This document shows positions 1,795 to 25,674 of a DNA stretch of 27,346 bases, piece by piece (positions within the stretch are counted from its first letter, which is position 1; each line of letters starts with the position of its first letter). This DNA comes from a virus. The stretch lies in IMG/VR virus record IMGVR_UViG_3300005264_000126, positions 1 through 27,346 of that record. The stretch is one strand, 5' to 3'. A program made the translations under genes and the position numbers. The notes beneath the pieces are model-generated. The model searched no databases. It saw only the letters and a program-made list of their open reading frames with translations, and was not told where the DNA came from.

Positions 1795-1834
1795 TAAAAT
1801 TGTTTTTAAAATATATTATAATAAGGACTTGAAT

Positions 1835-3661
1835 ATGTTCAGAAATTGTTTTTATAATGGTCAGAAATCCGAAATCCATTTATGGGAAGAAATTAATGGT
1901 AGTAAAAAATATACAACAATACCATGGGTACCATATTTTTATCAAAAAACAGAGAGTAAAACTGGTATAAAAACACTTGATGGATTTAATGTCAAAAAAA
2001 GAAAATTTAATACACATAAACAATTTTTACAGGCACAAAAGGAATCTATTAACATATATGAAAATAATGTTTTACCTGTTATTCAATTTCTTTCTGAAAA
2101 TTATGCAGATATTCCAGATGATAATTTAATATCACCAAAATTAAAAATATATTCAATTGATATAGAAGTTCATTCTGAACAAGGATTTCCACATGCTGAA
2201 TTGGCAGAATATCCAATTACAGTTATAAATTTAAAAGAATTTAATGGTAAATCTTATTCATGGGGATTAAAACCATATACAAAAGAATTTGATTTACAAG
2301 ATGTTAATGGTAATAATATTGATATTGAATATTGTTACCATTATAATGAACCAGATTTATTAAAATCATTTATTTTATGGTTTAATAGACATCCTCCTGA
2401 TGTTTTAACTGGATGGAATATAATGTCTGATACCAAAACTAATAAATTTGGTGGTTTTGATATGCCATATATAATTAATAGATGTATACAATTATTTGGT
2501 GAAAATACCAACATTTATAAAAAATTATCACCTATTAATAATGTTAGAAAATGGATACAAAAAAATACAAATACAATGATTATTGATATTGCTGGTATAT
2601 CTATTATTGATTATATGTCATTATATAAATGGTACACACCAAAAAATCAAGAAAATTTTAGACTTGATACTATATGCCAAGATGAATTGAATATTGGTAA
2701 ATTGGAATATGAATATGAAGATTTACGTGAACTTTATAATAATGATTGGAATACATATATTGATTATAATATTATTGATAATGTTCGTATTGAAGAACTT
2801 GAAAATAAACTTGGATATATAAAATTGGCTCAGCAATTATCACTATTAACAAAAACACCAATTAAAAGTTATAATGCATCAGTACAACAAATAGAAGGTT
2901 TATTATTAACATATTATAGAAGAAATAAATTATGTGCACCATATTTTGCTGGTGGAACTCAAGAGCATTTTCCAGCAGCATATGTTAAAACACCACAAAA
3001 AGGTATTCATAATTGGGTCATTGATGTTGATATAGCATCAAGTTATCCAACAAGTATTATTATTATGAATATGTCACCAGAAACATATATTGGTCGTATT
3101 CAATTAAATGAAGATAAAATTGTTAAATATTGTAAACAAAAAAGATTTGATGAAGATTTTACTTTGATAAAAACTACTGGTATATCAAAAATGAAAAATG
3201 AAAAATTAAAAGATTTTAATAATTTTTTAAATAATAAATTAATAACTATAGCACCATGTGGAACTGTTTTTGATAATACAAAAAAAGGTGTATATGCATC
3301 AGTTGAAAAGTCTGTTTTTTTTAAAAGAAAAGAAATTAAAAGAAAAATGATTGATATTAAAAAATCAATTAAAAAAATTGAAAAGAAAAATCCAACAAAG
3401 GCAAGTATAATGAAAGAAAATGCTGATAGATTGTTTTCTTATCAATGGGCATTAAAAATTGTTTTAAATCAGGCATTTGGTATATTGGCAGTACCATATT
3501 CAAGATATTTTAATACTGATATAGCAGAAGCTATAACAAGTGCAAGTAAATATACTATTATACATGGACAAACTATTGTAAATAGATTATTTAATAATCC
3601 AAATATTAACAGTGATTTTAATTCAGAATTAAAAAAAATAATTAAACAAATAAATGGTTGA
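1835..3661 (+). CDS. 43A: DNA polymerase family B, N-terminal part (exonuclease, palm motif A, fingers)
   Basis: 608 residues from the ATG at 1835 (AAGGA at 1823-1827; a TTG at 1829 is too close to it). T4 gp43-like replicative polymerase, first part. Visible motifs: ExoI SIDIEVHSE (D109, E111), ExoII GWNIMSD...FGGFD (N195, D209), ExoIII YNIID (Y311, D315), palm motif A DVDIASSYPTSI (D399, Y404), and fingers motif B KIVLNQAFG (K541, N545, G549). The proofreading site is therefore complete. The protein stops at IIKQING shortly after motif B and lacks motif C and the thumb, which are encoded at 4373-5248. The break coincides with the inserted cassette at 3650-4363. Active polymerase would need the two chains to associate. 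The gene symbol follows the split-gene naming used for T4-like phages. Confidence 0.93.
   Translation: MFRNCFYNGQKSEIHLWEEINGSKKYTTIPWVPYFYQKTESKTGIKTLDGFNVKKRKFNTHKQFLQAQKESINIYENNVLPVIQFLSENYADIPDDNLISPKLKIYSIDIEVHSEQGFPHAELAEYPITVINLKEFNGKSYSWGLKPYTKEFDLQDVNGNNIDIEYCYHYNEPDLLKSFILWFNRHPPDVLTGWNIMSDTKTNKFGGFDMPYIINRCIQLFGENTNIYKKLSPINNVRKWIQKNTNTMIIDIAGISIIDYMSLYKWYTPKNQENFRLDTICQDELNIGKLEYEYEDLRELYNNDWNTYIDYNIIDNVRIEELENKLGYIKLAQQLSLLTKTPIKSYNASVQQIEGLLLTYYRRNKLCAPYFAGGTQEHFPAAYVKTPQKGIHNWVIDVDIASSYPTSIIIMNMSPETYIGRIQLNEDKIVKYCKQKRFDEDFTLIKTTGISKMKNEKLKDFNNFLNNKLITIAPCGTVFDNTKKGVYASVEKSVFFKRKEIKRKMIDIKKSIKKIEKKNPTKASIMKENADRLFSYQWALKIVLNQAFGILAVPYSRYFNTDIAEAITSASKYTIIHGQTIVNRLFNNPNINSDFNSELKKIIKQING
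3638..3649 (+). repeat. Left copy of 12-bp direct repeat flanking the polymerase insertion
   Basis: ATAATTAAACAA, identical to 4352-4363. Here it encodes Ile-Ile-Lys-Gln in the polymerase frame, just before that frame runs into ING and a stop. The distance between copies is 714 bp, a multiple of three, so both copies are read in the same frame. Confidence 0.7.
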
Positions 3662-3781: not shown

Positions 3782-4249
3782 ATGAAAAGGATTTGTAGAT
3801 GGTCTTTAATTTTGATTTGTATGTTTTTTCTTACCGGATGTGTAGCAACTAATGCACAAAAAAGTGCTGGTATTGGATCTCTGGCTGGTATGGCTGGTAG
3901 TGCACTTGGCAAAGGTGATAGAAATACTACTTTACTTTTGGGTGGTGCTGGTGCTATACTTGGATATATGATTGGTAATGAAATGGATAAAAATATTTAT
4001 CAGCAACCAAGAAACAATTCTTATCATCAGCAACCAAGAAACAATTCTTATCATCAGCAACCAAGAAACAATTCTTATAATTATCAATCAAGAAACAATT
4101 CTTATAATTATCAATCAAGAAATAATTCTTATAGTTATCAACCAAGAACTGATTGCGAAAAAATTATTATAAGAAAATGGGTTAATGGACAAATGATTGA
4201 AACCATTGAAGAAAAATGTAAAGGTAAAGTAAGTACACCAACTTATTGA
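3782..4249 (+). CDS. Glycine-zipper lipoprotein with nine-residue tandem repeats
   Basis: 155 residues, start supported by AAAAGGA upstream. A type II signal peptide (basic MKRICR, hydrophobic core, lipobox LTGC) predicts lipidation of Cys20; Val at +2 gives no inner-membrane retention signal by the enterobacterial rule. Residues 29-68 (GIGSLAGMAGSALG ... GGAGAILGYMIGNEMD) are a glycine-zipper membrane segment as in the 17-kDa surface antigen/YMGG-like group. Residues 72-125 are six copies of a nine-residue Gln/Asn/Tyr-rich unit such as YHQQPRNNS. The C-terminus has two cysteines (125, 146). It lies inside the polymerase insertion with its own promoter, so it reads as accessory cargo, perhaps altering the host envelope or blocking superinfection; that role is inference. 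Confidence 0.85.
   Translation: MKRICRWSLILICMFFLTGCVATNAQKSAGIGSLAGMAGSALGKGDRNTTLLLGGAGAILGYMIGNEMDKNIYQQPRNNSYHQQPRNNSYHQQPRNNSYNYQSRNNSYNYQSRNNSYSYQPRTDCEKIIIRKWVNGQMIETIEEKCKGKVSTPTY
3995..4156 (+). repeat. Six tandem 27-bp repeats inside the lipoprotein gene
   Basis: Units of 27 bases (nine codons) are repeated six times. The first copies encode YHQQPRNNS, the middle ones YNYQSRNNS, and the last is diverged (YSYQPRTDC). The period is a multiple of three, so copy number can change by slippage without breaking the frame. The low-stop sequence also creates spurious long frames on both strands here. Confidence 0.85.
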
Positions 4250-4257
4250 TTTGGTAT

Positions 4258-4352
4258 GGTAGGATGGCAGAGTGGTTTATTGCAATGGTCTTGAAAACCA
4301 TCAAAGGTGTGAATAGCATCTTTCAAGGGTTCGAATCCCTTTCCTACTTCCA
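4258..4352 (+). tRNA. tRNA-Ser (UGA anticodon)
   Basis: Acceptor stem GGTAGGA/TCCTACT (4258-4264, 4342-4348, one G-U pair at the end), long variable arm as in class II tRNAs, anticodon stem ATGGT/ACCAT with loop CTTGAAA (TGA at 4292-4294), T-arm AAGGG-TTCGAAT-CCCTT, discriminator T and an encoded CCA (4350-4352). The U73 discriminator differs from the usual G73 of bacterial tRNA-Ser. It starts eight bases after the lipoprotein stop and ends on the first base of the right 12-bp repeat. It reads UCA, a frequent Ser codon in these genes. Confidence 0.93.
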
Positions 4353-4363
4353 TAATTAAACAA
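4352..4363 (+). repeat. Right copy of 12-bp direct repeat
   Basis: ATAATTAAACAA, identical to 3638-3649. Its first base is the terminal A of the tRNA-Ser CCA. Read in the frame of the downstream polymerase gene it encodes IIKQ and continues without a stop through GNC into MENVDY. Confidence 0.7.
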
Positions 4364-4372
4364 GGAAATTGT

Positions 4373-5248
4373 ATGGAAAATGTTGATTATGTTGCATATA
4401 TAGATACTGATAGTTTATTTATAAAATTTGAAGAATTTTTATTATCACATGGTGTTAATAAAGATAAATGGTTGTTAATACCTGATGATCAAAAAATTGA
4501 AATAATAATAAAACTTTCAAGAAAACTTGAAAAATATATTAATGATTCTTGTTATAAAGAATTACAACAAGAATTATATAATAGTACAATTAAACAAGAT
4601 GATTTTGCTATAATTTTTAAACAAGAAATTATTTGTAAAACTGCGTTATTTGTAAAAAAGAAAAAATATGGTTTTCATGTTGTTAATGATGAAGGTGTTC
4701 CAAAAGATAAAATTGATGTAACTGGTCTTGAAATTATTAGATCAGAAACACCAAAGGCATTTAAAATTATACTTAAAAAAGTTCTTAGTATGATACTTAA
4801 AGCAGCTTCAGATAAAGAAATTATGTCATTTGTAAATAAAAGTAAAAAAGAAATCAAAACAAACAATCCAAGCGATATATCGTCTAATATAAGTATAAAT
4901 AAAATTGATAAATATATTAAAGATGATATACCAATGAAAGGCACACCATATCATATTAAAGGTGCCGCAAATTATCATAAATTAATTAAATTATTTGGTC
5001 TTGATAATAAATATAGTAAAATTAATGAAGGTGATAAAGCATCTGTATTATATGTAAAACCAAATAAATATAAAGTAGATGTTATATCATATATTAGATG
5101 GCCAAAAGAATTCGAAAAATTAAATATTTTTCCTGATTATGAAAAACAAATTAACAAGTTTTTCATAAAAAAAATACAAATTCTTTTAGAACCAATGAAT
5201 AGAGAAAGTATTTTAACACAAAATGAAAATTTTAATTTGTTTTTTTAA
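4373..5248 (+). CDS. 43B: DNA polymerase family B, C-terminal part (palm motif C and thumb)
   Basis: 291 residues. It starts with MENVDYVAYIDTDSLF, the palm motif C whose D11 and D13 are catalytic metal ligands, so it supplies the residues missing from the N-terminal gene. KKKKYGFHVVNDEG followed by VTGLEIIRSETPKAFK matches the KKRY...GLExxKSxTPK region of T4 gp43. GTPYHIKGAANYHKLIKLFGL and the following section correspond to the thumb. The tail ENFNLFF could be a short clamp-binding motif (inference). The start has AAGGAAAT upstream, and the frame is open back through the 12-bp repeat, evidence that it was once continuous with the upstream part. Confidence 0.93.
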   Translation: MENVDYVAYIDTDSLFIKFEEFLLSHGVNKDKWLLIPDDQKIEIIIKLSRKLEKYINDSCYKELQQELYNSTIKQDDFAIIFKQEIICKTALFVKKKKYGFHVVNDEGVPKDKIDVTGLEIIRSETPKAFKIILKKVLSMILKAASDKEIMSFVNKSKKEIKTNNPSDISSNISINKIDKYIKDDIPMKGTPYHIKGAANYHKLIKLFGLDNKYSKINEGDKASVLYVKPNKYKVDVISYIRWPKEFEKLNIFPDYEKQINKFFIKKIQILLEPMNRESILTQNENFNLFF

Positions 5249-5262
5249 TTAAAGGAGTAGTA

Positions 5263-5601
5263 ATGGTATATTTGGAAAATATTAAAATAGGTGATACAGT
5301 AATGATACAACATAATAATACCTATTATAAAGATATTATATTGAGAAAATTAAAAACAAAAGTTGAATGTAAAACAGGTGAATTTTTAATTAAAGATGGT
5401 AAAATAATAGGTAAAGAAGACAAAATTATTATTGAAATGACTGATGATGTAAAAACACAAATTTTATCACAAGAATATTTTCTTTTATTAAAAAATATGC
5501 AAAAAATGACATTTGAAAACAATAAAAGTTATGAAGGATTTATTCAAAAAGTAAGAAATCTTTATAATGCAAATAAAAAACATAATGAAAAACATATTTA
5601 A
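5263..5601 (+). CDS. Hypothetical protein (112 aa)
   Basis: Starts MVYLENIKIGDTVMIQHNN after a good AAAGGAG site, 14 bases behind the polymerase gene. The first half has the alternating pattern of a small beta barrel (KIGDTVMIQ, KTKVECKTGEFLIKDGKIIG); the second half is helical and basic (NNKSYEGFIQKVRNLYNANKKHNEKHI). Function unknown. Its 3' end overlaps the start of the PEP-CTERM gene in another frame. Confidence 0.72.
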   Translation: MVYLENIKIGDTVMIQHNNTYYKDIILRKLKTKVECKTGEFLIKDGKIIGKEDKIIIEMTDDVKTQILSQEYFLLLKNMQKMTFENNKSYEGFIQKVRNLYNANKKHNEKHI

Positions 5602-6136
5602 AATAACATGTATTATAATAATATATAGTATATTATTTCCTGTATATGGCATGTCAACACCATCTTATTCAGGAATATATATGTTTACATATAGTGGTAA
5701 TGATAATGATTTAACAGAAGTAAATAACTTAATAAATGATTGGTTAAATTTAAATAATGAAGAAAATATAAAAATTGAGTATGTTTCTAAACTTGAAAAT
5801 GAAGGATCAAATAATGATTTTAAATTCTTTTTTAATGATACAAAAAAAGAAGGAACTTTTTCATCATTAAATAATATTAATTTTTATAGTGTTAAAGGTG
5901 GCAATCAATTTGCTGTATATTGGTTAGATATATCAATGTTAAATTTATCAAATTATATGTGGTCAACTGAACATTTGATTAATGGTGGAGGTAATCAACC
6001 AGACTTGTCACATATATCAATATTCTGGACAGATGAAAAAAACTTGCCAGTACCAGAATCATTAACTATATTACTATTTGGTTTTGGGTTATTATTTATT
6101 ACAGGAATAAGTAGAAAATTTAATACATTTAAATAA
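5585..6136 (+). CDS. Secreted PEP-CTERM-like protein 1
   Basis: 183 residues from the ATG at 5585 (MKNIFKITC then a hydrophobic stretch to about residue 22, a Sec signal peptide); an in-frame ATG at 5567 would add six residues and neither has a clear ribosome site. The mature part is Asn/Asp-rich and unrecognised. The C-terminus is a tripartite sorting signal: PVPES, then hydrophobic LTILLFGFGLLFITG, then basic SRKF. This matches the PEP-CTERM layout recognised by exosortases, with PES instead of PEP. It would be exported and processed at the host inner membrane if the host has an exosortase. Two more such proteins lie at 12342 and 13153. Confidence 0.8.
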   Translation: MKNIFKITCIIIIYSILFPVYGMSTPSYSGIYMFTYSGNDNDLTEVNNLINDWLNLNNEENIKIEYVSKLENEGSNNDFKFFFNDTKKEGTFSSLNNINFYSVKGGNQFAVYWLDISMLNLSNYMWSTEHLINGGGNQPDLSHISIFWTDEKNLPVPESLTILLFGFGLLFITGISRKFNTFK

Positions 6137-6192
6137 ATATATAAAAATCCAATATACTCTATTATATCTATGGAATAAGTATTGAAAAATAT

Positions 6193-6267
6193 CAGGGATC
6201 GATCATAGGACAAGTGGATTTTGGAAATCTGCGAATAAGGTTGGAGCATTACCAACATCCCTGACCA
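6193..6267 (+). ncRNA. tRNA-shaped structured RNA candidate
   Basis: CAGGGAT (6193-6199) pairs perfectly with ATCCCTG (6257-6263), followed by A-CCA (6264-6267). Directly inside the 3' strand is a hairpin with exactly five pairs and seven loop bases (GTTGG-AGCATTA-CCAAC, 6240-6256), the T-arm geometry. A middle hairpin (6214-6232) can be drawn with loop TTTGGAA, giving a TGG anticodon. Against a normal tRNA: the T-loop lacks TTCRA, no convincing D-stem exists and the gap before the T-arm is eight bases. It may be a degenerate tRNA-Pro, a tRNA mimic or an unrelated three-way-junction RNA. It fills the gap between the PEP-CTERM gene and the tRNA-Arg promoter; the rest of 6137-6345 shows nothing else. 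Confidence 0.5.
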
Positions 6268-6345
6268 CTAAAAATTTAATCAAATGAACCATTTATACAC
6301 CAATTGTGATATGTTAAAAAATGGTAAAAATTTCATCAAATACTC

Positions 6346-6374
6346 TTGACAATGTTTATTAATGGTGTTATAAT
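6346..6374 (+). promoter_or_regulatory. Consensus sigma-70 promoter upstream of tRNA-Arg
   Basis: TTGACA (6346-6351), a 17-base spacer and TATAAT (6369-6374), preceded by TGT, an extended -10. This is a perfect match to the bacterial consensus and sits 36 bases before tRNA-Arg. Confidence 0.88.
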
Positions 6375-6409
6375 TTAATAAAAAATTTTGGTTCTTTGAG
6401 TAAAAATAA

Positions 6410-6485
6410 GCCCCTATAGTTCAGTGAATAGAACACCATGCTTCTAACGTGGATATCGCAAGTTTGATTCTTGCTAGGGGTTCCA
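6410..6485 (+). tRNA. tRNA-Arg (UCU anticodon)
   Basis: Acceptor GCCCCTA/TAGGGGT (6410-6416, 6475-6481; the first pair is G-U), D-arm GTTC...GAAC, anticodon arm CCATG-CTTCTAA-CGTGG with TCT at 6443-6445, T-arm GCAAG-TTTGATT-CTTGC, discriminator T and encoded CCA (6483-6485). It reads AGA, the dominant Arg codon in these AT-rich genes, so it probably supplements the host pool. Confidence 0.94.
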
Positions 6486-6569
6486 AATTTTCAGATGTGT
6501 CATCATCTATGAAGGCATTGATAATTCAATAAGGTGGTGTCACTTCTGTCATTTAAAATCACCTATATA

Positions 6570-6594
6570 TTTCACCAAATTCTTTTGACAATGT
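6570..6594 (+). repeat. Diverged copy of the tRNA-Arg promoter region
   Basis: Positions 6570-6594 repeat 6331-6355 with about three mismatches (shared core CTnTTGACAATGT). The second copy keeps a TTGACA (6585-6590) but has no TATAAT at the correct distance, since the ribosome binding site and start of the next gene take its place. The stretch 6486-6569 between the copies has weak inverted repeats (AGGTG/CACCT at about 6531-6563) and no gene. Confidence 0.45.
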
Positions 6595-6613
6595 ATTATT
6601 AAGGAGAATAAAA

Positions 6614-6784
6614 ATGATTGGACAGTATACAGAAGATGAATTATTTGCAATGAAAGGTATTATATCAAGTGCAAAATTAATGTATGAAGGTAAAGTTGTA
6701 AGATTTGTTGGTAAAACATATAATTATTACAAAAAAGAAGTTGATGGTTCATGGACTAATTATAATTGTGGAACAAGTAGTTAA
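6614..6784 (+). CDS. Small hypothetical protein (56 aa)
   Basis: ATG at 6614 follows AAGGAG (6601-6606) at good spacing. The protein begins MIGQYTEDELFAMKGIISSA, then a stretch KLMYEGKVVRFVGKTYNYYKK that could form beta strands, and ends NYNCGTSS. It follows tRNA-Arg and is probably transcribed from the same promoter. Family and function are not recognised. Confidence 0.65.
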   Translation: MIGQYTEDELFAMKGIISSAKLMYEGKVVRFVGKTYNYYKKEVDGSWTNYNCGTSS

Positions 6785-6848
6785 ATTATTATAAATATTT
6801 TATTTTGGTAACAAATAAAACACTAAAAAATTGTTGTAAAAGGAAAAA

Positions 6849-8624
6849 ATGTCTATAAAAAAATTAAAAAAATATGATAAATTATATAATTTGGGTATAT
6901 CACCAATATCAGATTTAGAATATGATAATCTTAAAGAACAATATCAAAAAAATTATCCAAATGATCCATATTTTAAAACAGTTGGTTCAGATTCAAGAGA
7001 AAAAGTTAAATTACCGTTTATACTTGGTTCATTAAATAAAACTAAAGCAAATGGAACTTGTGAAAAATGGTTACAGAAACAAGATAGTGATATTATTATA
7101 TCACCAAAACTTGATGGTGTATCAATTCTTGTCAATTATTTTAATGGTGAAGTAAATAAGGCATATCTTAGAGGTGATGGTGAATTTGGACAAGAAATTA
7201 CTATCAAATCAAAAAGATTTATCAAATCTATTAAAGAAACTAAATCCATTTGGGTACGTGGAGAAATTCTTCTTGATTATTTACCAGAAGGATATAAAAA
7301 TAAAAGAAATGCTGTAGCTGGTATTATTAATGATAAAGAAAATGATTTACAAAAAGATTTAAAATTTATTTTTTATGAATATATTAATGCACCTGTTGAT
7401 ATTGAATGTGAAAGATTATTATTACTTGAATCATTTGATATTCCTGTTGTTATATGGAAAAAATTTAAAAAAAATGATTTAACAGAAAATATACTTGTTG
7501 AATTATTAAAAACATATAAAGAAGAAAATCCTAATATATTAATTGATGGTTTAGTGTTAACAAAAAATAACAGTGATAGAGAAAATATTAAATATCCAAG
7601 TCAAAAAGTTGCTTTTAAAGTAAATCAATCAGCAATACCAACCAAAGTTATTGATATTAAATGGAACACTTCACGAAAAGGCAGAGTAATACCATTAATT
7701 GATATTGAGCCTACTGAAATTGATGGTTCAACAATAAGAAAAGTAACTGGTCATAATGCAAAATATATTCAAGATGAAGGTATAAAAATTGGAACATCTA
7801 TTAATTTAATTAAAAGTGGTGATATAATTCCATTTATAGATAGTGTTATTGATGGTGATATTGCAGATTTACCTATTATTTGTAGTACTTGTGGTGAACA
7901 ATTGATCTGGAAAAATGTAGATTTAATATGTACCAATAAAAATTGTGAAGCACAATCCATTAAACAATTAACACATTTTATTAAAACTATTGGTGTTATG
8001 GGTATATCAATATCTACTATTGAAAAACTTAATATTAATACAATAGAAGAATTGTATAATTTATCAGTTCAAGATATAGTTAAATTAGACGGTTTTGGTA
8101 TTAAAAAATCTGAAAGTATTGTAAATGAATTAAAAGATAAATTAACAATTACACCATATAAATTTTTATCTGCACTTGGTATTAGTGGACTTGGTAATAC
8201 AAATGCTAAAAGATTAATGGAAAATTTTGATTCAATTGAAGATATATTTAATGTAACAGATTTTTCTTTTATTGATGGTATTGGTGATAAAACTAGTGAT
8301 AATATTGTAAAAGGTCTTGTTCAAGGGTTAATTACATATAAAATTCTTAAAAATAAAGGTTTAAAATTTGAAGAGAAACAAGAAGATTCAGAGTTTTCAG
8401 GTAAGGTTGTAACATTAACTGGTACAGCACCTATTAAAAGAAATAATCTTATAAGAATTCTTGAGAGTCAAGGATGTATAGTAAAAAATATTAGCAAAAA
8501 GGTTGACTTTTTGATAGTTGACGATGTAGAATCAAATAGTAGTAAAGCTAAGAAAGCAAGAAAATATAATATTCCTTTTATGAGTTATGATAATTTACTT
8601 GACAAATTAGGTGTAATTGATTAA
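6849..8624 (+). CDS. ligA: NAD+-dependent DNA ligase
   Basis: 591 residues; AAAAGGA precedes the ATG. It seals nicks in DNA using NAD+. Order: short domain Ia (residues 1-45, ISDLEYDNL core), adenylation domain with SPKLDG (K87 the AMP-accepting lysine), RGDGEFGQ, WVRGEI, DGLVLTKN and VAFKVN, then OB-fold, a four-Cys zinc finger (CSTCG...CTNKNC, about residues 345-366), helix-hairpin-helix repeats (LDGFGIKKSESI, ALGISGLGNTNAKRL, IDGIGDKTSDNI) and a C-terminal BRCT domain (about 515-590). Bacterial LigA is usually near 670 residues; the shortfall is partly at the N-terminus, where the usual YxxYY helix is reduced. It would join Okazaki fragments with the T4-like replisome genes here. Confidence 0.96.
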   Translation: MSIKKLKKYDKLYNLGISPISDLEYDNLKEQYQKNYPNDPYFKTVGSDSREKVKLPFILGSLNKTKANGTCEKWLQKQDSDIIISPKLDGVSILVNYFNGEVNKAYLRGDGEFGQEITIKSKRFIKSIKETKSIWVRGEILLDYLPEGYKNKRNAVAGIINDKENDLQKDLKFIFYEYINAPVDIECERLLLLESFDIPVVIWKKFKKNDLTENILVELLKTYKEENPNILIDGLVLTKNNSDRENIKYPSQKVAFKVNQSAIPTKVIDIKWNTSRKGRVIPLIDIEPTEIDGSTIRKVTGHNAKYIQDEGIKIGTSINLIKSGDIIPFIDSVIDGDIADLPIICSTCGEQLIWKNVDLICTNKNCEAQSIKQLTHFIKTIGVMGISISTIEKLNINTIEELYNLSVQDIVKLDGFGIKKSESIVNELKDKLTITPYKFLSALGISGLGNTNAKRLMENFDSIEDIFNVTDFSFIDGIGDKTSDNIVKGLVQGLITYKILKNKGLKFEEKQEDSEFSGKVVTLTGTAPIKRNNLIRILESQGCIVKNISKKVDFLIVDDVESNSSKAKKARKYNIPFMSYDNLLDKLGVID

Positions 8625-8660
8625 AATGTATTTTTACTTGCTTACTTATTGGATATTATT

Positions 8661-8822
8661 ATGGGAAAAAAGAAAAAGAAAATCAAGAAACCAAGAGATT
8701 GGACAGTTGTACACTTGATTAATAGAGGTGGATCAGGTATCCATGATAAAACAGAGAAACGTTCAAAAAAGAAACAAGATTTAAACATCAAAATTAAACA
8801 AGGTAAATTAGAGGATATCTAA
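8661..8822 (+). CDS. Small basic hypothetical protein (53 aa)
   Basis: Begins MGKKKKKIKKPRDWTVVHLI and has many Lys/Arg residues throughout (also EKRSKKKQD). No strong ribosome site is visible. Its stop overlaps the next ATG as TAATG, a coupling typical of this genome. The charge suggests nucleic-acid binding, but that is only inference. Confidence 0.55.
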   Translation: MGKKKKKIKKPRDWTVVHLINRGGSGIHDKTEKRSKKKQDLNIKIKQGKLEDI

Positions 8823-9001
8823 TGGATAAAATTCAAAAAGGTGTTAGTATGGCAAAAGCAGAAGCATTTAATCATATTGTTAAAATTGTAAATAAGTATA
8901 ATACAGATACAGAAAATATTGTCTATAATGTAGAAAATATTATACAAGAAACTTTGAAAAATATTAAATATATTAAAAAAAGATATAATATTGAAAAATA
9001 A
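8822..9001 (+). CDS. Small hypothetical protein (59 aa)
   Basis: ATG at 8822 overlaps the previous stop; the frame ends at 8999-9001 inside the start of the methyltransferase gene. The protein, MDKIQKGVSMAKAEAFNHIV and onward, is predicted to be almost entirely helical and ends KKRYNIEK. An internal Met at residue 10 could be an alternative start. No family is recognised. Confidence 0.5.
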   Translation: MDKIQKGVSMAKAEAFNHIVKIVNKYNTDTENIVYNVENIIQETLKNIKYIKKRYNIEK

Positions 9002-9758
9002 AATAATACATTCTGATTGTGTTGATGCAATTTGTACTTTACCTGATAATCATATTGATTTGTTAATAACAAGTCCACCATATAATGTTAATCTCGGAAA
9101 TAATAAATTTAATAAAGATAGTTATTTTTCACATGATGATAATATACCATACGATGAATATATTTTATGGCTTACCAAAATTTTTTTTCTATTAAAATCA
9201 AAAATGAAAGATGACGGAAGACTGGTTATTAATATTGGTGATGGGAAAAATGGTTTGTTACCTACTCATTCTTACATTATTCAATTTATGATACAATTAG
9301 GTTATCATCCATATACAACTATTATATGGAATAAAAATCATTGTAGTAATAGATCATCATGGGGATCATGGAAAAGTCCTTCATGTCCTTCATTTCCGAC
9401 ACAATTTGAATATATTTTAGTATTTTATAATAGATATCAAAAAAAGATTAATAAAGGTAAATCTGATATATTAAAATCGGAATTTATAAATAATTCATCA
9501 TCTATCTGGAATTTTTCTGGTGATAAAAAAAGTAAAACATGTCATCCTGCAGCATTTCCGATTGAATTACCATTAAGATGTATTAAACAATTTACATGGA
9601 TAGGTGATACAGTACTTGATATTTTTGCTGGATCTGGTACAGTTGGTGAAGCATGTAGAAGAACAAAAAGAAATTATATTTTGATTGAAAAAGATAAAAA
9701 ATATATTCCATTAATCAAACAAAGAGTAAATCAGTTAAATATAACAGATTTCTCATAA
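8991..9758 (+). CDS. DNA methyltransferase, beta class (N4-cytosine or N6-adenine)
   Basis: 255 residues from a TTG at 8991, the only plausible start before the conserved core; it overlaps the preceding gene by 11 bases. It transfers methyl from S-adenosylmethionine to a DNA base. Catalytic motif IV is TSPPYN (residues 27-32) near the N-terminus and the AdoMet-binding motif I is FAGSGT (212-217) near the C-terminus, the beta-class order. SPPY is commoner in N4-cytosine enzymes, but N6-adenine cannot be excluded. SSWGSWKSPS and FEYILVFYN are also typical. No restriction enzyme is adjacent, so it is probably a solitary enzyme that protects phage DNA or marks it; the target site is unknown. Confidence 0.9.
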   Translation: MKNKIIHSDCVDAICTLPDNHIDLLITSPPYNVNLGNNKFNKDSYFSHDDNIPYDEYILWLTKIFFLLKSKMKDDGRLVINIGDGKNGLLPTHSYIIQFMIQLGYHPYTTIIWNKNHCSNRSSWGSWKSPSCPSFPTQFEYILVFYNRYQKKINKGKSDILKSEFINNSSSIWNFSGDKKSKTCHPAAFPIELPLRCIKQFTWIGDTVLDIFAGSGTVGEACRRTKRNYILIEKDKKYIPLIKQRVNQLNITDFS

Positions 9759-9766
9759 GGAGAAAA

Positions 9767-10030
9767 ATGCCAAAATGTTATAAGTGTACAAATTTCTTTC
9801 ATCCAGATTTTAGTTTATTAATTGATCAAATTAATGGTATATATGAATGTGTGTTTTGTCATACAGGCAAAGATACAATTACTATAATTGATAAACAAAA
9901 TGGAAATGAAATTGAAGTTAAAAAACATCACGCTATAAATCAATATATTGAATACTTAAAAACGATGTCTCAAACAAAAAATGTAAAATCCATTATTGAA
10001 AATGGTTATGTATCGAGAATAATAACATGA
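9767..10030 (+). CDS. Small zinc-ribbon-like protein
   Basis: 87 residues after an AAGGAG site. Two CxxC pairs (CYKC at residues 4-7, CVFC at 28-31), separated by about 20 residues, look like a zinc ribbon. The rest (DTITIIDKQNGNEIEVKK, HHAINQYIEYLKTM) is a beta hairpin followed by a helix. Function is unknown; such ribbons often bind nucleic acids or RNA polymerase. Its stop overlaps the next ATG (ATGA). Confidence 0.7.
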   Translation: MPKCYKCTNFFHPDFSLLIDQINGIYECVFCHTGKDTITIIDKQNGNEIEVKKHHAINQYIEYLKTMSQTKNVKSIIENGYVSRIIT

Positions 10031-10203
10031 ATATAAAAGAAATATTTTATAACAAAAAAATTAAGTTAAAAAATGACATATCTGAATTGTTTTCAGAATT
10101 TGAAAAAGATACAGGTGTAAAAATTATTGATATAATTACAGATACATCTTATAATTTATTAACTTATAAAATTTTAACTAATATAGATAATGAAAATGAA
10201 TGA
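10027..10203 (+). CDS. Small hypothetical protein (58 aa)
   Basis: Starts at the ATGA overlap with the zinc-ribbon gene and reads MNIKEIFYNKKIKLKNDISE, then a mixed helix/strand region (GVKIIDIITDTSYNLLTYKIL) ending NENE. Strong acidic/basic alternation and no Cys. The coupling to the gene before supports translation. Not recognised. Confidence 0.5.
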   Translation: MNIKEIFYNKKIKLKNDISELFSEFEKDTGVKIIDIITDTSYNLLTYKILTNIDNENE

Positions 10204-10303
10204 TAATAAAATTGTGATAACCCTTATTGTCAAACATAGTGAATTAGAATTAAACGATTCTTTATATTAAAATTTGAATTAAAAGAAAAATAGGTGGTTT
10301 TAT

Positions 10304-10390
10304 ATGTTAAAAAAGAAATGTGAAAATTGTGAAATAAGACTTTGTAATATTTGCTATAATTATAATATGAATAGTGTTTGTTATGAGTAA
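10304..10390 (+). CDS. Tiny cysteine-rich protein (28 aa)
   Basis: ATG at 10304 lies after TAGGTGG. The peptide contains CENC and CNIC plus a further Cys near the end, enough for a single zinc-binding knuckle. Its stop overlaps the preferred start of the next gene (ATGAGTAA). The gap 10204-10303 shows no other gene. Because it is so short it may be only a coupling leader. Confidence 0.4.
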   Translation: MLKKKCENCEIRLCNICYNYNMNSVCYE

Positions 10391-11453
10391 AATAATAAAT
10401 AAACCTGTTACAATAATGTATCATACTTATGTTGCAGATTTGTCTGGATGTGGGTATATTAGATGTATATATCCGTCAATGCTAATGTCACAATATGTTC
10501 ATAAAGACATGGTAAGATTTTTACCATCATATGGTATACATTTTATTAATGATAAAAGTTTTTATAAAAATCAATTATTTACAATGTTTCAAAGATCTGC
10601 CACACCTGATCAATTAATTTTAATAAAACATTTTAAAAAACATTTTAGATATGAAACACAAACTCCATTAATATATGAAATTGACGATTTGTTGACTGAT
10701 ATACCTGACTGGAATTATGCATCAACATATTATAGACAACATTCACATGTGGCATTAGAAATCATAAAAATGATGGATGGTATGATCGTGTCTACTAATA
10801 AATTAAAAGAAATATTTTCACAATATCAACCAAAAATACAAGTATGTTTAAATCATTTAGTTAAAGGTCATTGGGGTGAACCAAAATATAAAGTTTGGTA
10901 TCATAAAAAACCAAAAATACTATGGGCTGGTTCAGGTAATCATTTTTCACAAGAAGGTAAAGGTGGTGATTTTGGTGATAAATTATTGAATTTTATTCAA
11001 AAAACATCTAATAAGTATGAATGGAATATATTAGGTGGATGTCCTTTAGAACTTAAAAATGATAAAAATGTTATTAAGCATGGATGGGTAAATTTATTTG
11101 AATATCCAAATTATATAAAATCATTACATGTTGATTTGGCAATTGCACCATTAGAACAAAATCTTTTTAATGAATGTAAATCTAACATAAAATCTTTAGA
11201 ATATACAGCAGCAGGTATTCCAGCTATATATACTAATATAGAACCTTATAAAAATTTATCTGTAGTATGTGATACAGAAGATTTGATGATATATCAAATA
11301 GAGACACATTTAAATAATCCTGATTTGCTTAAAAAAATATGGGAAAAGGATTATAAAATATTAAAAAATCAATTATTTTGGGAAGATAATAATAATCTTT
11401 CTAAATATTTTAATAAAATAATTGGAAATTTTAATTTTAAATTAACTAAATAA
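10383..11453 (+). CDS. Glycosyltransferase, GT-B fold (GT4-like)
   Basis: 356 residues from the ATG at 10383, chosen for its stop/start overlap; a GTG at 10374 would add three residues. It would move a sugar from a nucleotide-sugar donor to an unknown acceptor. The N-terminal half has IYEIDDLLTDIPDWN and MDGMIVSTNKLKEIF, typical of phage glycosyltransferases of this type. The C-terminal half has ILWAGSGNH, WNILGG and the donor-site motif FNECKSNIKSLEYTAAGIPAIYT (E, K and second E of the GT4 pattern). Targets could be phage DNA, virion proteins or host surface sugars; nothing here decides. No sugar-nucleotide synthesis genes are adjacent. Confidence 0.85.
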   Translation: MSKIINKPVTIMYHTYVADLSGCGYIRCIYPSMLMSQYVHKDMVRFLPSYGIHFINDKSFYKNQLFTMFQRSATPDQLILIKHFKKHFRYETQTPLIYEIDDLLTDIPDWNYASTYYRQHSHVALEIIKMMDGMIVSTNKLKEIFSQYQPKIQVCLNHLVKGHWGEPKYKVWYHKKPKILWAGSGNHFSQEGKGGDFGDKLLNFIQKTSNKYEWNILGGCPLELKNDKNVIKHGWVNLFEYPNYIKSLHVDLAIAPLEQNLFNECKSNIKSLEYTAAGIPAIYTNIEPYKNLSVVCDTEDLMIYQIETHLNNPDLLKKIWEKDYKILKNQLFWEDNNNLSKYFNKIIGNFNFKLTK

Positions 11454-11463
11454 AGGAGAAATT

Positions 11464-11679
11464 ATGGACGGTAAATTATTTGAAAAAGAAAAAGTAGAAA
11501 ATAAAGATAGAAAATTTGGAGCAGCATTAGAATATTTTCCAGTAAAATTTGTAACAACATCCAATGAAAATATTAATGCCTTATTTACAAAACACGAAAT
11601 TGATCAAGCTATTGATAGAGCAAAAAGAAATCCAGAAGATATAGAAAAAGATAGCAAATGGTGGAATTTATTTGATTAG
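11464..11679 (+). CDS. Hypothetical protein (71 aa)
   Basis: Starts after AAAGGAG. The sequence MDGKLFEKEKVENKDRKFGA then EYFPVKFVTTSNENINALFT and a helix with HEIDQAIDRAKRNPEDI ends KWWNLFD. The helix with conserved-looking basic residues resembles small phage proteins that I cannot name. The stop is 11 bases upstream of the next chosen start. Confidence 0.65.
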   Translation: MDGKLFEKEKVENKDRKFGAALEYFPVKFVTTSNENINALFTKHEIDQAIDRAKRNPEDIEKDSKWWNLFD

Positions 11680-11689
11680 GAAGTTATTT

Positions 11690-11899
11690 ATGTTTGAAGA
11701 TGATAATGATAGTATGGAAAAAAATGAATTTATTGTTAAATTACCAATATCAGGTACAATTGAAATTACAGTTAATGCTATTGATGAAACTGATGCTATT
11801 GAAAGATCATTAGATGTTGACATTACTGATTCGTTAATGTATGATAATATTGAAATTGAAATTGATTATGATCAAAAAATTGATGTAGAAGAAATTTAA
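11690..11899 (+). CDS. Acidic hypothetical protein (69 aa)
   Basis: ATG at 11690 is preferred because AGGAAG (11678-11683) lies six bases upstream; a TTG at 11672 would extend it but lacks such a site. Very acidic. After a short N-terminus it has the pattern FIVKLPISGTIEITVNAIDE, TDAIERSLDV and IEIEIDYD, suggesting a small beta-alpha-beta fold. Function unknown. Confidence 0.6.
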   Translation: MFEDDNDSMEKNEFIVKLPISGTIEITVNAIDETDAIERSLDVDITDSLMYDNIEIEIDYDQKIDVEEI

Positions 11900-11924
11900 A
11901 TGAATATTCACAAAAAGGTGTAAT

Positions 11925-12242
11925 ATGGAAAAATTGTTTTATAATAAATTAGTAAGGGATAAAATACCATCAATTATCAAAAAATCAGGTAAAAATTTTA
12001 AAGTATCTACTATATCTGATGACAAATTTTTTAATATTCTTCTTAATAAACTTCAAGAAGAAGTTGATGAATTTAAATCAAAACCAAATATAGAAGAAAT
12101 TGGTGATATAATGACTGTAATATTAGAATTAATGGATACATTAAATATAACATATCATCAATTATATGAAGAAATGTCTCAAAAATTGCTAAGTAATGGT
12201 GAATATAAACAAAAAATTTTTCTTGAATGGGTTGACAAATAA
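11925..12242 (+). CDS. MazG-like nucleotide pyrophosphohydrolase
   Basis: 105 residues, start after AAGGTG. FYNKLVRDKIPSIIKKSGK is the N-terminal signature of the phosphoribosyl-ATP pyrophosphohydrolase-like group in the MazG superfamily. Metal-binding acidic pairs EEVDE (E45, E46, E49) and EEIGD (E57, E58, D61) follow on adjacent helices. These enzymes release pyrophosphate from (d)NTPs or modified nucleotides; in phages they may cleanse the nucleotide pool or lower alarmone levels. The stop is five bases before the tRNA. Confidence 0.87.
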   Translation: MEKLFYNKLVRDKIPSIIKKSGKNFKVSTISDDKFFNILLNKLQEEVDEFKSKPNIEEIGDIMTVILELMDTLNITYHQLYEEMSQKLLSNGEYKQKIFLEWVDK

Positions 12243-12247
12243 TTAAT

Positions 12248-12322
12248 TGCGCGGTAGAGTAGTGGTAACTCAACAGGCTCATATCCTGTGATATAACAGT
12301 TCGAATCTGTTCCGCGCAACCA
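12248..12322 (+). tRNA. tRNA with CAU anticodon, initiator-like
   Basis: Acceptor TGCGCGG/CCGCGCA (12248-12254, 12312-12318), D-stem GAGT/ACTC, anticodon arm ACAGG-CTCATAT-CCTGT with CAT at 12280-12282, T-arm AACAG-TTCGAAT-CTGTT, discriminator A and encoded CCA (12320-12322). CAU may mean Met, initiator Met or lysidine-modified Ile2. The D-stem has A11-U24, a purine-pyrimidine pair characteristic of bacterial initiators, and the weak U1-A72 pair also suits an initiator. The anticodon stem has only two of the usual three G-C pairs. It lies just before a PEP-CTERM gene. Confidence 0.93.
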
Positions 12323-12341
12323 AATAACAAGGAGATTGAAA

Positions 12342-13088
12342 ATGTTTAAAAAATGTTTGATTTTAGTAATTCTATTAATTGTAAGTGTAAGTACAGTAAC
12401 AAGTTCTTTAGCAGTAACAATTAGTATTGATAATGGTGATAGATTTTATTCTGATCTTTGGGCTAAAGGTCAAACTATGAATAGTCATATTTTTGTAGAT
12501 GATCAATTTATTGCTCCTATTTCTTTAGAATTAAATAGTGTACAATATATTGCATTTTGTGTTGATTTTTTTAGTCCACTTTGGGCAGGCAATTGGTCAT
12601 ATACAATTTCAGATGCATCAGATTATATAAATAATAATTATGTTGATCCAGAAAATTCATTAGAATATGCCATATTTAATCTTGAAAATAATTGGGAATC
12701 AAGTATTCAAGATAATGAATCAAGAGCTTATACACAATTAAATTTATGGGATACTTTATATGATTATCAACCATCATCTAATATGCATATAGATTCTAAT
12801 TTTATGTATTTTGATATTCATGATAATTATGGTAATAATTATACAAATCAATTTAATCATGGTGGACCATATCAGAATGGTTTATTAAATGCAACATCAA
12901 ACGGAAGTTATTCAGTTGATGCTTTTATTGATTTATATTCAGTTATAACTGTTAGTCAAGAAGGTAGTAATGAAATATATCAAACATTATTAATAAAAAC
13001 TGGTTCTTCACCAATACCGGAACCAGCAACATTATTACTTTTTGGGTTTGGTTTGATATGTGTATCAAAATATTCGAGAAAAAAGTAA
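12342..13088 (+). CDS. Secreted PEP-CTERM protein 2
   Basis: 248 residues from the ATG at 12342, seven bases after AAGGAG (12329-12334); a TTG at 12336 is less likely. The N-terminus FKKCLILVILLIVSVSTVTS is a Sec signal peptide, cleaved probably near SSLA. The mature region, with INNNYVDPENSLEYAIFNLENN and NESRAYTQLNLWDTLYDY, looks like a host-type extracellular domain with an Asn-rich surface. The C-terminus is IPEPATLLLFGFGLICVSKY followed by SRKK, a textbook PEP-CTERM signal for exosortase-mediated sorting. It follows the CAU tRNA by 19 bases and precedes another PEP-CTERM gene. Confidence 0.9.
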   Translation: MFKKCLILVILLIVSVSTVTSSLAVTISIDNGDRFYSDLWAKGQTMNSHIFVDDQFIAPISLELNSVQYIAFCVDFFSPLWAGNWSYTISDASDYINNNYVDPENSLEYAIFNLENNWESSIQDNESRAYTQLNLWDTLYDYQPSSNMHIDSNFMYFDIHDNYGNNYTNQFNHGGPYQNGLLNATSNGSYSVDAFIDLYSVITVSQEGSNEIYQTLLIKTGSSPIPEPATLLLFGFGLICVSKYSRKK

Positions 13089-13095
13089 CTTAAAT

Positions 13096-13123
13096 AGAAG
13101 TGTTATAATATTATAACACTTCT
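13096..13123 (+). terminator. Perfect 28-bp palindrome between the two PEP-CTERM genes
   Basis: AGAAGTGTTATAAT (13096-13109) is followed directly by its reverse complement. As RNA this folds into a long hairpin, eight bases after the stop codon. No U tract follows, so it may be a processing or stability hairpin, or a dyad operator, rather than a classical terminator. Confidence 0.5.
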
Positions 13124-13152
13124 ATAAATAATTTAATTTAAAGGAGAAAAAA

Positions 13153-14028
13153 ATGAAAAAAATTTTATCTAGAATATTAATATGTGCATTTTTATTCTTA
13201 TCATCAACAAGTGCACAAGCATATTCAGTATCATTTCAAAATTGGGGCTTTAATCCTGATGGCAATACAATCATTTCACCAATTGATGAAATGACATTAT
13301 TAGGTACAACACTTAATAATAGCACACCAGAAAGTACAGGACATGGTACTTTTAAAACTTTTAGTGCCTTTCAGGCAACATCATTTCAAAACGATCAACA
13401 AGTAATTATTGGATCAGGTATTAATACATTATATCAAATCACTTTTGTTATGGATACAACTGGTAGATATGACGTAAATCCAAATGGTATAAATGATTTG
13501 ATATTTCAAAATGGATCATTAGATATGTATTTGGATACAACTATGGATTATGGTGATAATACTGATGGTTCACCAAATCCATTTTTTGGTGCAGATAATG
13601 GAACATTAATAGCATCATTTGATTTATTATCTGGTACAGGTATTATGGATTATAGTACATCACCTGCAGATGGTAGAACAAATTTAGAATTTGGTGCTAA
13701 TTATCTTGCACTTGATTATTGGTTTGATAGTGATGGCAACGATATGTCATTATATGGGAATGATCCTTTAATTATTGGATTAGTTGATTCAAATAATATG
13801 GTTTTTAGTCCACCTGCCAATGCATTAGATGAATTTATTGAACATAGTGATTTGACATATGGAACAGTTGGTGTTGATCCAAAAATGGAAACTTTCATAA
13901 CATCAAATGGATCTTATGCACCAGCATCATCAACAACAATACCAGAACCAGCAACATTGTTATTGTTAGGTTTTGGGTTACTTGGATTATCTAAAATACA
14001 AAGAAAAGAATTTAATGATATCTGTTAA
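13153..14028 (+). CDS. Secreted PEP-CTERM protein 3
   Basis: 291 residues after an AAAGGAG site. The signal peptide KKILSRILICAFLFLSSTSA ends at AQA, a good signal peptidase I site near residue 23. The mature part is Asp/Asn/Gly-rich, with NPNGINDLIFQNGSLDMYLD and FDSDGNDMSLYGNDP, suggestive of a beta-sandwich with metal-binding loops (inference). It ends IPEPATLLLLGFGLLGLSKI plus QRKEF, a full PEP-CTERM signal. The sorting segment closely resembles that of the preceding protein while the bodies differ, suggesting separate capture or fast divergence of the body. The domain is reminiscent of host PEP-CTERM surface proteins; I cannot name it further. Confidence 0.9.
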   Translation: MKKILSRILICAFLFLSSTSAQAYSVSFQNWGFNPDGNTIISPIDEMTLLGTTLNNSTPESTGHGTFKTFSAFQATSFQNDQQVIIGSGINTLYQITFVMDTTGRYDVNPNGINDLIFQNGSLDMYLDTTMDYGDNTDGSPNPFFGADNGTLIASFDLLSGTGIMDYSTSPADGRTNLEFGANYLALDYWFDSDGNDMSLYGNDPLIIGLVDSNNMVFSPPANALDEFIEHSDLTYGTVGVDPKMETFITSNGSYAPASSTTIPEPATLLLLGFGLLGLSKIQRKEFNDIC

Positions 14029-18957: not shown

Positions 18958-19857
18958 GTGAAAACAGTTCTTATTGATGGAAATAATATCATGCAAAGAT
19001 CACTTCATAGTGATGGTACTATGATAATTGATCCAAATAATAAATATAATGTATTAGATTATGATTGGAATATGTTTAGATTTAATATATTTAATTATAT
19101 ATATTGGTCAATAAAACAAGCAAAAAATTGTTCAGAATTAGTATTTGCAATTGATGGTAAACGTCATGAAACATGGCGTAATTATGTTTGGAAGAAATAT
19201 AAAGCCAATAGAGATAAACCTAAACCTTCTGATAAAAACATTGATTGGAAATTAGTAACTGAAAAATATCTTAATTTTGCTCAAGAACTATCAGAAAATT
19301 TTCCATTTAAAATAATTCAATACAAATTAGCCGAAGGTGATGATATTATATCAACTATAGTAATGAATTCACCACAAAAACATTATATTGTTTCTGTTGA
19401 TAAGGATTATATACAACTTTATGAACCAAATAGAGTTGAAATTTATAGTCCATTAAAACAATCAACTATTAAACATCCGAATCCTGAACATTTTTTAATA
19501 GAACAATGTCTTTTAGGTCAAAGTAAAGATAACATCTATAACATAAAAACACCATTAGATCATCCAGAAGATAAAAGAAAAATTGGATTTGGTCCAAAAG
19601 CACTTGAAAAAGTAATGACTATTGGTTATAAAAAATGGTTGAAAGATAATAATTTAGAAGAAAAATTCGATTTCAATAGGTCATTGATTGATTTTAAAAA
19701 GATACCCAAAGAACTTCAAAATATTATAATGAAAAAATATAATAAAAGTAATAAGCCTGATCCAAATAAAATGTATAAATTTATTAAAAAACAAAATTGG
19801 ACAATGTTTTTAGATAATTGGACTAATATTGAATATACATTAATGGAACTTTATTAG
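18958..19857 (+). CDS. rnh: 5'-3' exonuclease, T4 RNase H-like (FEN superfamily)
   Basis: 299 residues from a GTG at 18958 after AAAGGAG. It would remove RNA primers and adjacent DNA from Okazaki fragments before ligation. Acidic metal ligands are in the expected order: IDGNN (D7), AIDGKRH (D66), AEGDD (E126, D128, D129), VDKDY (D148, D150) and GQSKDNI (D191). The basic YVWKKYKANRDK segment (residues 76-87) is the helical arch region. T4 RNase H is 305 residues, so length fits. The ligase at 6849 and polymerase genes are its functional partners. The stop TAG overlaps the next GTG. Confidence 0.92.
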   Translation: MKTVLIDGNNIMQRSLHSDGTMIIDPNNKYNVLDYDWNMFRFNIFNYIYWSIKQAKNCSELVFAIDGKRHETWRNYVWKKYKANRDKPKPSDKNIDWKLVTEKYLNFAQELSENFPFKIIQYKLAEGDDIISTIVMNSPQKHYIVSVDKDYIQLYEPNRVEIYSPLKQSTIKHPNPEHFLIEQCLLGQSKDNIYNIKTPLDHPEDKRKIGFGPKALEKVMTIGYKKWLKDNNLEEKFDFNRSLIDFKKIPKELQNIIMKKYNKSNKPDPNKMYKFIKKQNWTMFLDNWTNIEYTLMELY

Positions 19858-24537: not shown

Positions 24538-24682
24538 TGTTATTACTAAATCGGAATTTAATAAACGTAGAAGATTATATATTAAATCATTGATTAATAA
24601 TGAAAATTTTGAAGATGCAGAAGGTCATGGAGTAAATAGAAATAAAGAATTTACAAAATATTTTGGAGCAACTATAAATTAA
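24515..24682 (+). CDS. Small basic protein (55 aa)
   Basis: ATG at 24515 has TAAGGAG upstream, inside the previous gene. MKKRKKINVITKSEFNKRRR is strongly basic, followed by LYIKSLINNENFEDAEGHGV and a short C-terminus. The stop overlaps the next start (TAATG). Both ends coupled, so probably translated. Not recognised. Confidence 0.6.
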   Translation: MKKRKKINVITKSEFNKRRRLYIKSLINNENFEDAEGHGVNRNKEFTKYFGATIN

Positions 24683-25674
24683 TGAGATTTAAAACTAATG
24701 ATGGAATCTATCATAACATTGAAGATTTCAGACAAGGCAATTCTATAATTTTAAAAGGTAAAAAATTTAGAGAATTACCTAAAGGTATGAATATTGATGG
24801 TAATCTTATAATAAAAGATACTTACATAAGATCAATACCACCTAAAACTATTATATCTGGTGATCTAATAATGGATGGAAGTAAAGTATCCAAAATTCCT
24901 GGTACTGTTAAAATTGGTAGAAATTTAAGTGCAAAAAATACAAGATTATTATCATTTCCTGGTACTTTAAAATCTAATGGTGATATGGATTTATCAGGAT
25001 CATTAATAGAAAAATTACCAAATAATTATAGAGTAAGGGGTGATTTAGATTTAAGTCATACAACTTTATTTAAATTACCCAAAAAACTTACTGTTCAAGG
25101 TGATTTAGATTTAAGTCATACTAGAATTGTTGAAATACCAAAAGATTTAAAAATTGGTCAATCATTATATATTATTAATACTTCTTTTACTGAATTACCT
25201 GAAAATTATCATATTAAAGGTAGCTTGCATTGTGATAATATTAAATTATATTATTTTCCAAAAGGTTTAAAAATTGATGGTAGTTTATATGCATCACAAT
25301 TACCTATTACAACGTTACCTGATGATATACAAATTAAAGGAGATATTGATTTATCAAAATCACTTTTAACATCATTACCTTCTAGTTTTTCAAGTAATGG
25401 TAATTTGAATTTATCATATACAAGAATAACATCATTACCTGATAGATTAAGAGTTAATGGTAATTTAGATATAAGTTATTCAAGAATAAAAAGTTTGCCT
25501 AAAAGATGTCATATTACTGGAAATTGTAATATGATACATACAATATTGAACAAAATTAGTCAAAATTTTAATGTTAATGGATTTGTTGATTTTAGATATA
25601 CTAAAATTGAAAAAATACCCAGACATATAACATATGATCATTATAATGAAATTGATGAAGGAGAAATACAATAA
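24682..25674 (+). CDS. Leucine-rich-repeat-like protein with exact 20-residue period
   Basis: 330 residues. From residue 30 to 309 there are 14 consecutive 20-residue repeats and a partial one, with no insertion or deletion, of the form xxLPxxLxVxGDLDLSxTxI (for example KLPKKLTVQGDLDLSHTRI). The layout is near the 20-residue bacterial leucine-rich repeat with LP at the turn, and would build a beta-solenoid. No signal peptide or membrane segment is visible, so it is probably cytoplasmic or a virion protein. Such surfaces bind other proteins; the partner is unknown. The last gene-end bases overlap the next start. Confidence 0.8.
   Translation: MRFKTNDGIYHNIEDFRQGNSIILKGKKFRELPKGMNIDGNLIIKDTYIRSIPPKTIISGDLIMDGSKVSKIPGTVKIGRNLSAKNTRLLSFPGTLKSNGDMDLSGSLIEKLPNNYRVRGDLDLSHTTLFKLPKKLTVQGDLDLSHTRIVEIPKDLKIGQSLYIINTSFTELPENYHIKGSLHCDNIKLYYFPKGLKIDGSLYASQLPITTLPDDIQIKGDIDLSKSLLTSLPSSFSSNGNLNLSYTRITSLPDRLRVNGNLDISYSRIKSLPKRCHITGNCNMIHTILNKISQNFNVNGFVDFRYTKIEKIPRHITYDHYNEIDEGEIQ

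Follow-up and report, generated by a model that had tools for sequence, protein, structure and literature searches.

Phage genes for putative thioester-domain proteins with PEP-CTERM tails, candidate substrates of a host exosortase

The IMG/VR virus record IMGVR_UViG_3300005264_000126 is a single record of 27.3 kb (27,346 nucleotides, here called the window; approximately 20-30% GC; every larger plausible gene is on the plus strand) that encodes three predicted secreted proteins with PEP-CTERM-type sorting tails. They are named here after the positions at which their genes start: 5585, 12342 and 13153. On its sequence motifs, the 12342 protein is assigned to a family in which a thioester domain (TED) is joined to a PEP-CTERM tail, and a thioester bond is predicted in it. 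Members of this family are found in several phages and in bacteria.

The 12342 gene (12342..13088, plus strand) is the conserved phage member of the three. It encodes 248 amino acids from its ATG, or 250 from the TTG at 12336, which is the start in the list of open reading frames (ORFs); residues are numbered here from this TTG. Three motifs define thioester domains, namely [YFL]C-hydrophobic-polar, TQxx-hydrophobic-W and hydrophobic-Q-polar-hydrophobic-hydrophobic (PMC4450167; PMC6194298), and all three are present. The predicted thioester Cys75 (12558..12560) lies in FCVD, which follows the first motif, and is invariant in 22 aligned members. Gln134 and Trp138 of TQLNLW (12735..12749) make up the helix motif of the TEDs and are in register with SaTIE-TED and SfbI-TED. 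The predicted thioester Gln216 (12981..12983) is situated in YQTLL, which is profile-aligned with YQNLL of SfbI-TED (5a0l). The protein ends with the sorting tail PEP...LLLFGFGLI...RKK (13017..13085), which is hit by both PF07589 and TIGR02595. These four features are likewise on the plus strand.

The AFCVDF block is constant in the alignment of three phage lineages of the 12342 protein, and the profile built from these lineages retrieved bacterial PEP-CTERM proteins. With nine sequences aligned, Cys75, Val76, Gln134, Trp138 and Gln216 were invariant together with seven tail residues. In the alignment of 22 members (6 phage and 16 bacterial, with 16-43% identity to the window protein) only Cys75, Trp138, Gln216, the P-E-P and one Leu are fully invariant, Gln134 being conserved in at least 90%; the bacterial set was picked by similarity to the phage proteins, so that invariance there is not fully independent. 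Shuffling the 12342 body 200,000 times never produced the TED triad, and none of 74 other bacterial PEP-CTERM ORFs has it. When the family profiles were compared with the PDB (177,635 sequences), SaTIE-TED (6fx6) ranked first or second, followed by SfbI-TED and the TED of a fibronectin-binding protein (5dcq), with the motifs in register. The TED profile PF08341 matches 8 of the 22 family members at E ≤0.1 (best: 2.8e-5), and one phage protein (L128) reaches 21.9 bits against a cut-off of 22. Two other assignments were discarded: 3ism_C as a PDB relative was a partial match without the Cys that disappeared with the larger alignment, and a classification of the 12342 protein as PepA fails because the NF033554 matches are restricted to the C-terminal residues 156-250.

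The initial annotation described all three products as secreted PEP-CTERM-type proteins, and this description holds: each ORF is on the plus strand and encodes a signal-like start and a PEP-like tail. According to hydropathy, from which the signal peptides were also read, each protein has a charged or basic N-terminus with a hydrophobic stretch, while a second hydrophobic stretch directly follows the motif and precedes a basic end; internal hydrophobic segments were not seen by this measure. AAGGAG-type ribosome sites are found before the 12342 and 13153 genes. The curated profile cut-offs are exceeded by the 12342 protein (PF07589: 25.5 bits, cut-off 20.7; TIGR02595: 17.3 bits, cut-off 16) and by the 13153 protein (27.7 and 20.6 bits, respectively), whose tail IPEPATLLLLGFGLLGLSK is encoded at 13939..13995 (plus strand). 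The 5585 protein (183 amino acids; 5585..6136, plus strand; ATG start, 5567 in the ORF list) stays just under both, so that the profiles bear out two members of the trio directly. It is accepted as a genuine but divergent member from its homologies, since a Desulfobacterota protein aligns with its body (35% identity across 160 amino acids, E 1.4e-17) and its C-terminal part also matches further PEP-CTERM proteins.

The 13153 protein (13153..14028, plus strand; 291 amino acids; NF033554 and PF07589 hits) is, as judged by profile and tree, a distant homologue of the flocculation-associated PepA, with its nearest relatives among Desulfobacterota proteins. The flocculation PepA profile NF033554 covers its full length with 73 bits (E 3e-20). 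In the tree it is sister to the Desulfobacterota proteins L059 and L066 (support 98/94), and an exosortase is encoded in both genomes concerned. When the class of the best match was searched for close homologues, that same match alone was recovered. In Aquincola, overexpressed PepA shifts exopolysaccharide from the soluble to the cell-bound fraction and restores flocs (PMC9850573).

The gene content of the window identifies it as part of a T4-like phage genome. This assignment is based on a T4-type DNA polymerase, found by profile search in two ORFs (1829-3661 and 4373-5248), together with a gp32-like single-strand-binding protein, a RusA-like resolvase, an exonuclease, a class II ribonucleotide reductase and a primase, all identified with profiles. 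The closest GenBank polymerases, from T4-like cyanophages and Methylophilales phages, have approximately 30% identity. Three tRNA genes are also present.

Related phages were found with alignment queries (the RusA-like protein, and a TED-PEP alignment combined with PEP-tail patterns). Single-protein scans of IMG/VR and of genome contigs with the PEP proteins gave no relatives, the 8-residue patterns being too specific, and none were found for the PEP queries tried in the plasmid and GenBank phage collections. The contig G003 (IMGVR_UViG_3300011013_000099), an independent contig from another metagenome, is syntenic with the window over 0.5-19.9 kb. Between its orthologues of 11672 and 14335 lies that of the 12342 gene, whose product has 42% identity, compared to 70-83% in most replication genes; neither the 13153 nor the 5585 gene is present at the corresponding sites. 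In G008 (156 kb) and G007, which are probably the same phage, a PEP-CTERM gene that is a weak syntenic homologue of the 12342 gene adjoins homologues of the 10374 glycosyltransferase. This glycosyltransferase-like phage gene (10374..11453, plus strand; phrog_7162, E 2.8e-29, and synteny) forms the left boundary of the site in G003, in G007/G008 and in the near relative G006, and in the window a tRNA-Met (12248..12322, plus strand) lies directly upstream of the TED-PEP gene. In this phage group the site is variable and common to tRNAs and PEP genes.

The PEP-tail pattern scan with the TED-PEP alignment yielded ten virus contigs. Among them, full-length relatives of the 12342 protein other than that of G003 occur beside phage genes in L125, L128 and L131; these proteins were found via the tail pattern, yet they also possess the TED triad. 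In L125 the TED-PEP gene is located downstream of a tail-fibre-like gene. In L131, which has a gp32-like gene at its start, the TED-PEP gene extends at its end into the beginning of another PEP-CTERM gene; this second one in turn overlaps thymidylate synthase, and a third is situated 4 kb upstream. The TED-PEP gene of L128 is followed by a PEP-like gene that narrowly misses the Pfam cut-off and belongs to the family of the third gene of L131. In L126 the order is glycosyltransferase, exported proteins, PEP-CTERM gene, gp32 and RusA-like genes. The PEP-CTERM genes are a phage trait and not an assembly artefact, since the 12342 gene recurs at the matching position of the syntenic G003 and related genes occur on other phage contigs.

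Some further features were noted on these contigs. A second PEP-CTERM family with a long proline-rich linker is present in two phages (L131 2435-3247 and L128 8135-8920; 39% identity), and on visual inspection a PEP-CTERM protein from a 42-kb virus contig looks like a C39-type peptidase (L127 7311-8078). Near the TED-PEP gene of G007, a CFI-box-CTERM protein is encoded (L015 2503-2868; 88.9 bits versus 40) and further lipoproteins adjoin it; the stretch with the CFI-box-CTERM and PEP genes has 42% GC, compared to approximately 35% for the phage. The contig of G006, approximately 20 kb long, contains thirteen tRNA genes and a transfer-messenger RNA gene with the tag ADDYNYAVAA (L021 8518-10351 and 18115-18727).

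An exosortase gene had not been seen in the window at first, and a search of 20 virus records, namely the window and 19 others that are related or PEP-bearing, found none; records of 156 and 157 kb were among them. The nearest homologues of the protein bodies were looked for and found, mainly in Desulfobacterota genomes. The host exosortase on which the phage would rely, as the initial annotation had assumed, is inferred from these nearest sampled homologues: six of the eight Desulfobacterota genomes concerned encode an exosortase. Exosortases are also encoded in 11 of the 17 genomes with matches to PEPATLL-type tails. The TED-PEP profile (E 1e-11) matched 27 of 297 Desulfobacterota genomes, some of them by the tail only, versus 2 of 299 Pseudomonadota genomes; both samples are partial, and the phylum is that of the genome on which each sample was centred. 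The search for PEPATLL-type tails was likewise skewed toward Desulfobacterota. These sequence matches point to a Desulfobacterota host for this phage, short of proving it. Complete TED triads were observed in Desulfobacterota PEP-CTERM proteins (L118-L123 and L160-L186). TEDs have been described as found exclusively in Gram-positives (PMC4450167).

From these elements a mechanism can be proposed, in which the phage would encode its own exosortase substrates and leave the sorting to the host exosortase. The three proteins would be made early or in the middle of infection, as the location of their genes among DNA-metabolism genes suggests, and exported by Sec via their signal peptides. Their PEP-CTERM tails would then be cut and sorted by the host exosortase. 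The 12342 protein would display its TED, whose predicted Cys75-Gln216 bond could react with amines of the cell surface, the matrix or neighbouring cells, resulting in a covalent linkage. The PepA-like 13153 protein may tether exopolysaccharide to the cell in the manner of PepA. The likely net effect is an infected cell surface that is re-coated, sticky or cross-linked; in aggregates, infected cells and the virions they release would stay close to new hosts, and adsorption to the cell would be altered. We regard the proposal that the exosortase-sorted TED and PepA-like proteins re-coat, stick or cross-link the infected cell surface as evenly balanced between right and wrong. Cross-linking or aggregation is favoured because both recognizable bodies, those of the 12342 and 13153 proteins, are of adhesion types. 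The initial annotation had placed the proteins on the infected cell, for example to block rival phages or to alter the matrix; its phage, its genuine PEP-CTERM tails and its missing exosortase gene stand, and its generic masking has been refined to the more specific hypothesis of surface cross-linking or aggregation, because the 12342 protein is, on its motifs, a thioester-domain protein and the 13153 protein is PepA-like. More tentatively, and with the odds leaning slightly against it, several phage lineages might feed their own TED adhesins into the host exosortase pathway, so that infected cells become covalently cross-linked to the matrix or to neighbours. The PEP-CTERM TED proteins would then be an undescribed class of Gram-negative covalent adhesins, employed by Desulfobacterota and taken over by their phages.

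A number of observations weigh against this interpretation. Taken alone, the 12342 protein has no match to PF08341, and the PDB profile E-values for the TEDs are modest (0.0036-0.32 over all profiles, 0.0064-0.32 with the larger alignment). The AlphaFold models, made from 5-row alignments, were of low confidence (pLDDT 47.5 and 43.8), and Foldseek gave no significant match for them; fold-search matches to topoisomerases and kinases came from the poor models and are meaningless. The 13153 protein is under the curated NF033554 equivalog cut-off of 80 bits and is therefore called PepA-like instead of being filed as PepA. The 5585 protein is below both PEP-CTERM cut-offs (PF07589: 15.0 versus 20.7; TIGR02595: 14.9 versus 16) because its motif reads PVPES, without the third-position proline of PEP. 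Finally, the matching site of G006 holds tRNA genes and no PEP gene, so that some phages can do without the PEP genes.

A serious alternative, which may also operate alongside cross-linking, is superinfection exclusion. Here the surface-sorted proteins would cover or block the phage receptor against the adsorption or injection of rivals, and the TED would fix this cover permanently. Exclusion is common for phage-encoded surface or periplasmic proteins (phage morons), which counts in its favour. So does the location of the genes in a fast-changing variable site, as the low identity of the 12342 protein relative to most replication genes indicates, and the lineage-specific extra copies (5585 and 13153) would suit an arms race. 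However, the roles known for thioester cross-linkers and for floc proteins of the PepA type lie in adhesion more than in masking (PMC4450167, PMC9850573), and exclusion as the explanation is considered rather unlikely.

It is distinctly improbable that the genes are host-derived passengers, that is, morons acquired by chance and without a phage role. Bacterial homologues do exist, and the 13153 gene is second in GC among the genes listed (30.3%, z 2.2) and has no G003 orthologue. Against this, the 12342 gene has kept its site between phages that are only approximately 40% identical in their shared genes, no phage copy has lost any part of the TED triad, and the codon use is ameliorated (GC at third codon positions 0.08-0.12). 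More improbable still is a competitive decoy, whereby abundant phage PEP-CTERM proteins would occupy the host exosortase, block the maturation of host surface proteins and loosen the matrix before lysis. Such a role would agree with the tail alone being common to many different PEP-CTERM bodies in phages, but it would need neither a conserved thioester triad nor a PepA-like body, and conservation extends to the bodies themselves. Bacterial genomes commonly contain PEP-CTERM genes, yet the idea that the contig belongs to a bacterial chromosome or is chimeric was rejected as having hardly any chance, being contradicted by recognizable neighbours that are phage genes, by T4-type genes throughout and by the same gene order, PEP gene included, in the independent phage contig G003; the phage identity given in the initial annotation is thereby upheld.

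Each component of the proposed system is known, and their combination in phages appears to be new. The signal peptide, PEP motif, hydrophobic stretch and basic tail are those of the PEP-CTERM/exosortase system (XrtA/EpsH), but here they are phage-encoded without an exosortase gene and sorting would depend on the host. The TEDs of the Gram-positive TIE adhesins (PF08341; SfbI, SaTIE, FbaB, Cpa) agree in the order and register of the [YFL]C, TQxx-hydrophobic-W and Q motifs, whereas the 12342 family has a PEP-CTERM instead of an LPXTG anchor, lacks an isopeptide stalk and occurs in Desulfobacterota and phages. The PepA (NF033554) of Zoogloea and Aquincola corresponds to the 13153 protein over the full profile length, the latter differing by being 7 bits under the equivalog cut-off, phage-encoded and nearest to Desulfobacterota homologues. 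The TED adhesin of pLS20 is likewise a thioester-domain surface protein with which a mobile element aids its own spread, but pLS20 is a Gram-positive plasmid, the process is conjugation and the adhesin is not exosortase-sorted (PMC8092201). As with the phage surface morons of superinfection exclusion and receptor conversion, a phage product would be placed at the infected-cell envelope; unlike them, the window proteins have a host exosortase tag and, in the 12342 protein, predicted thioester chemistry.

The literature searched, which left most subscription journals outside, held no report of phage-encoded PEP-CTERM proteins and no paper joining PEP-CTERM with thioester domains, so that the initial impression of a phage strategy without precedent still stands within that scope. 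Horizontally acquired TIGR03118 proteins, described as having a putative exosortase interaction domain, receive one line in a paper on hot-spring viruses (PMC11003980). If the proposal is true, phages would exploit, with covalent chemistry, a sorting route hitherto studied only in the context of bacterial biofilms, and would thereby have a new means of altering infected cells. The proteins would also be cheap natural probes of exosortase function, and thioester adhesins would extend from Gram-positives to Gram-negative bacteria.

Elsewhere in the window, several minor features were observed. The T4-type DNA polymerase is split at the same point as in G003 (5418-7253 and 7526-8326 of that contig), with phrog_262 positions up to 564 on one side and from 569 on the other. 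The gap between the two window ORFs holds a tRNA-Ser and the gene (3782-4249) of a small exported lipoprotein with a glycine zipper and tandem PRNNSYHQQ-type repeats, which at 31% has the highest GC among the genes listed. Small paralogous proteins starting with MKIR(N/Q)GFVSNSSSSSF are encoded at 869-1267 and 1495-1794 of the window and at 4041-4373 of G003. The product of 19857-21266 combines treble-clef repeats with a Vsr-like domain and is homing-endonuclease-like, several copies being present in G006, and 24682-25674 encodes a regular repeat protein of 330 amino acids of the leucine-rich type.

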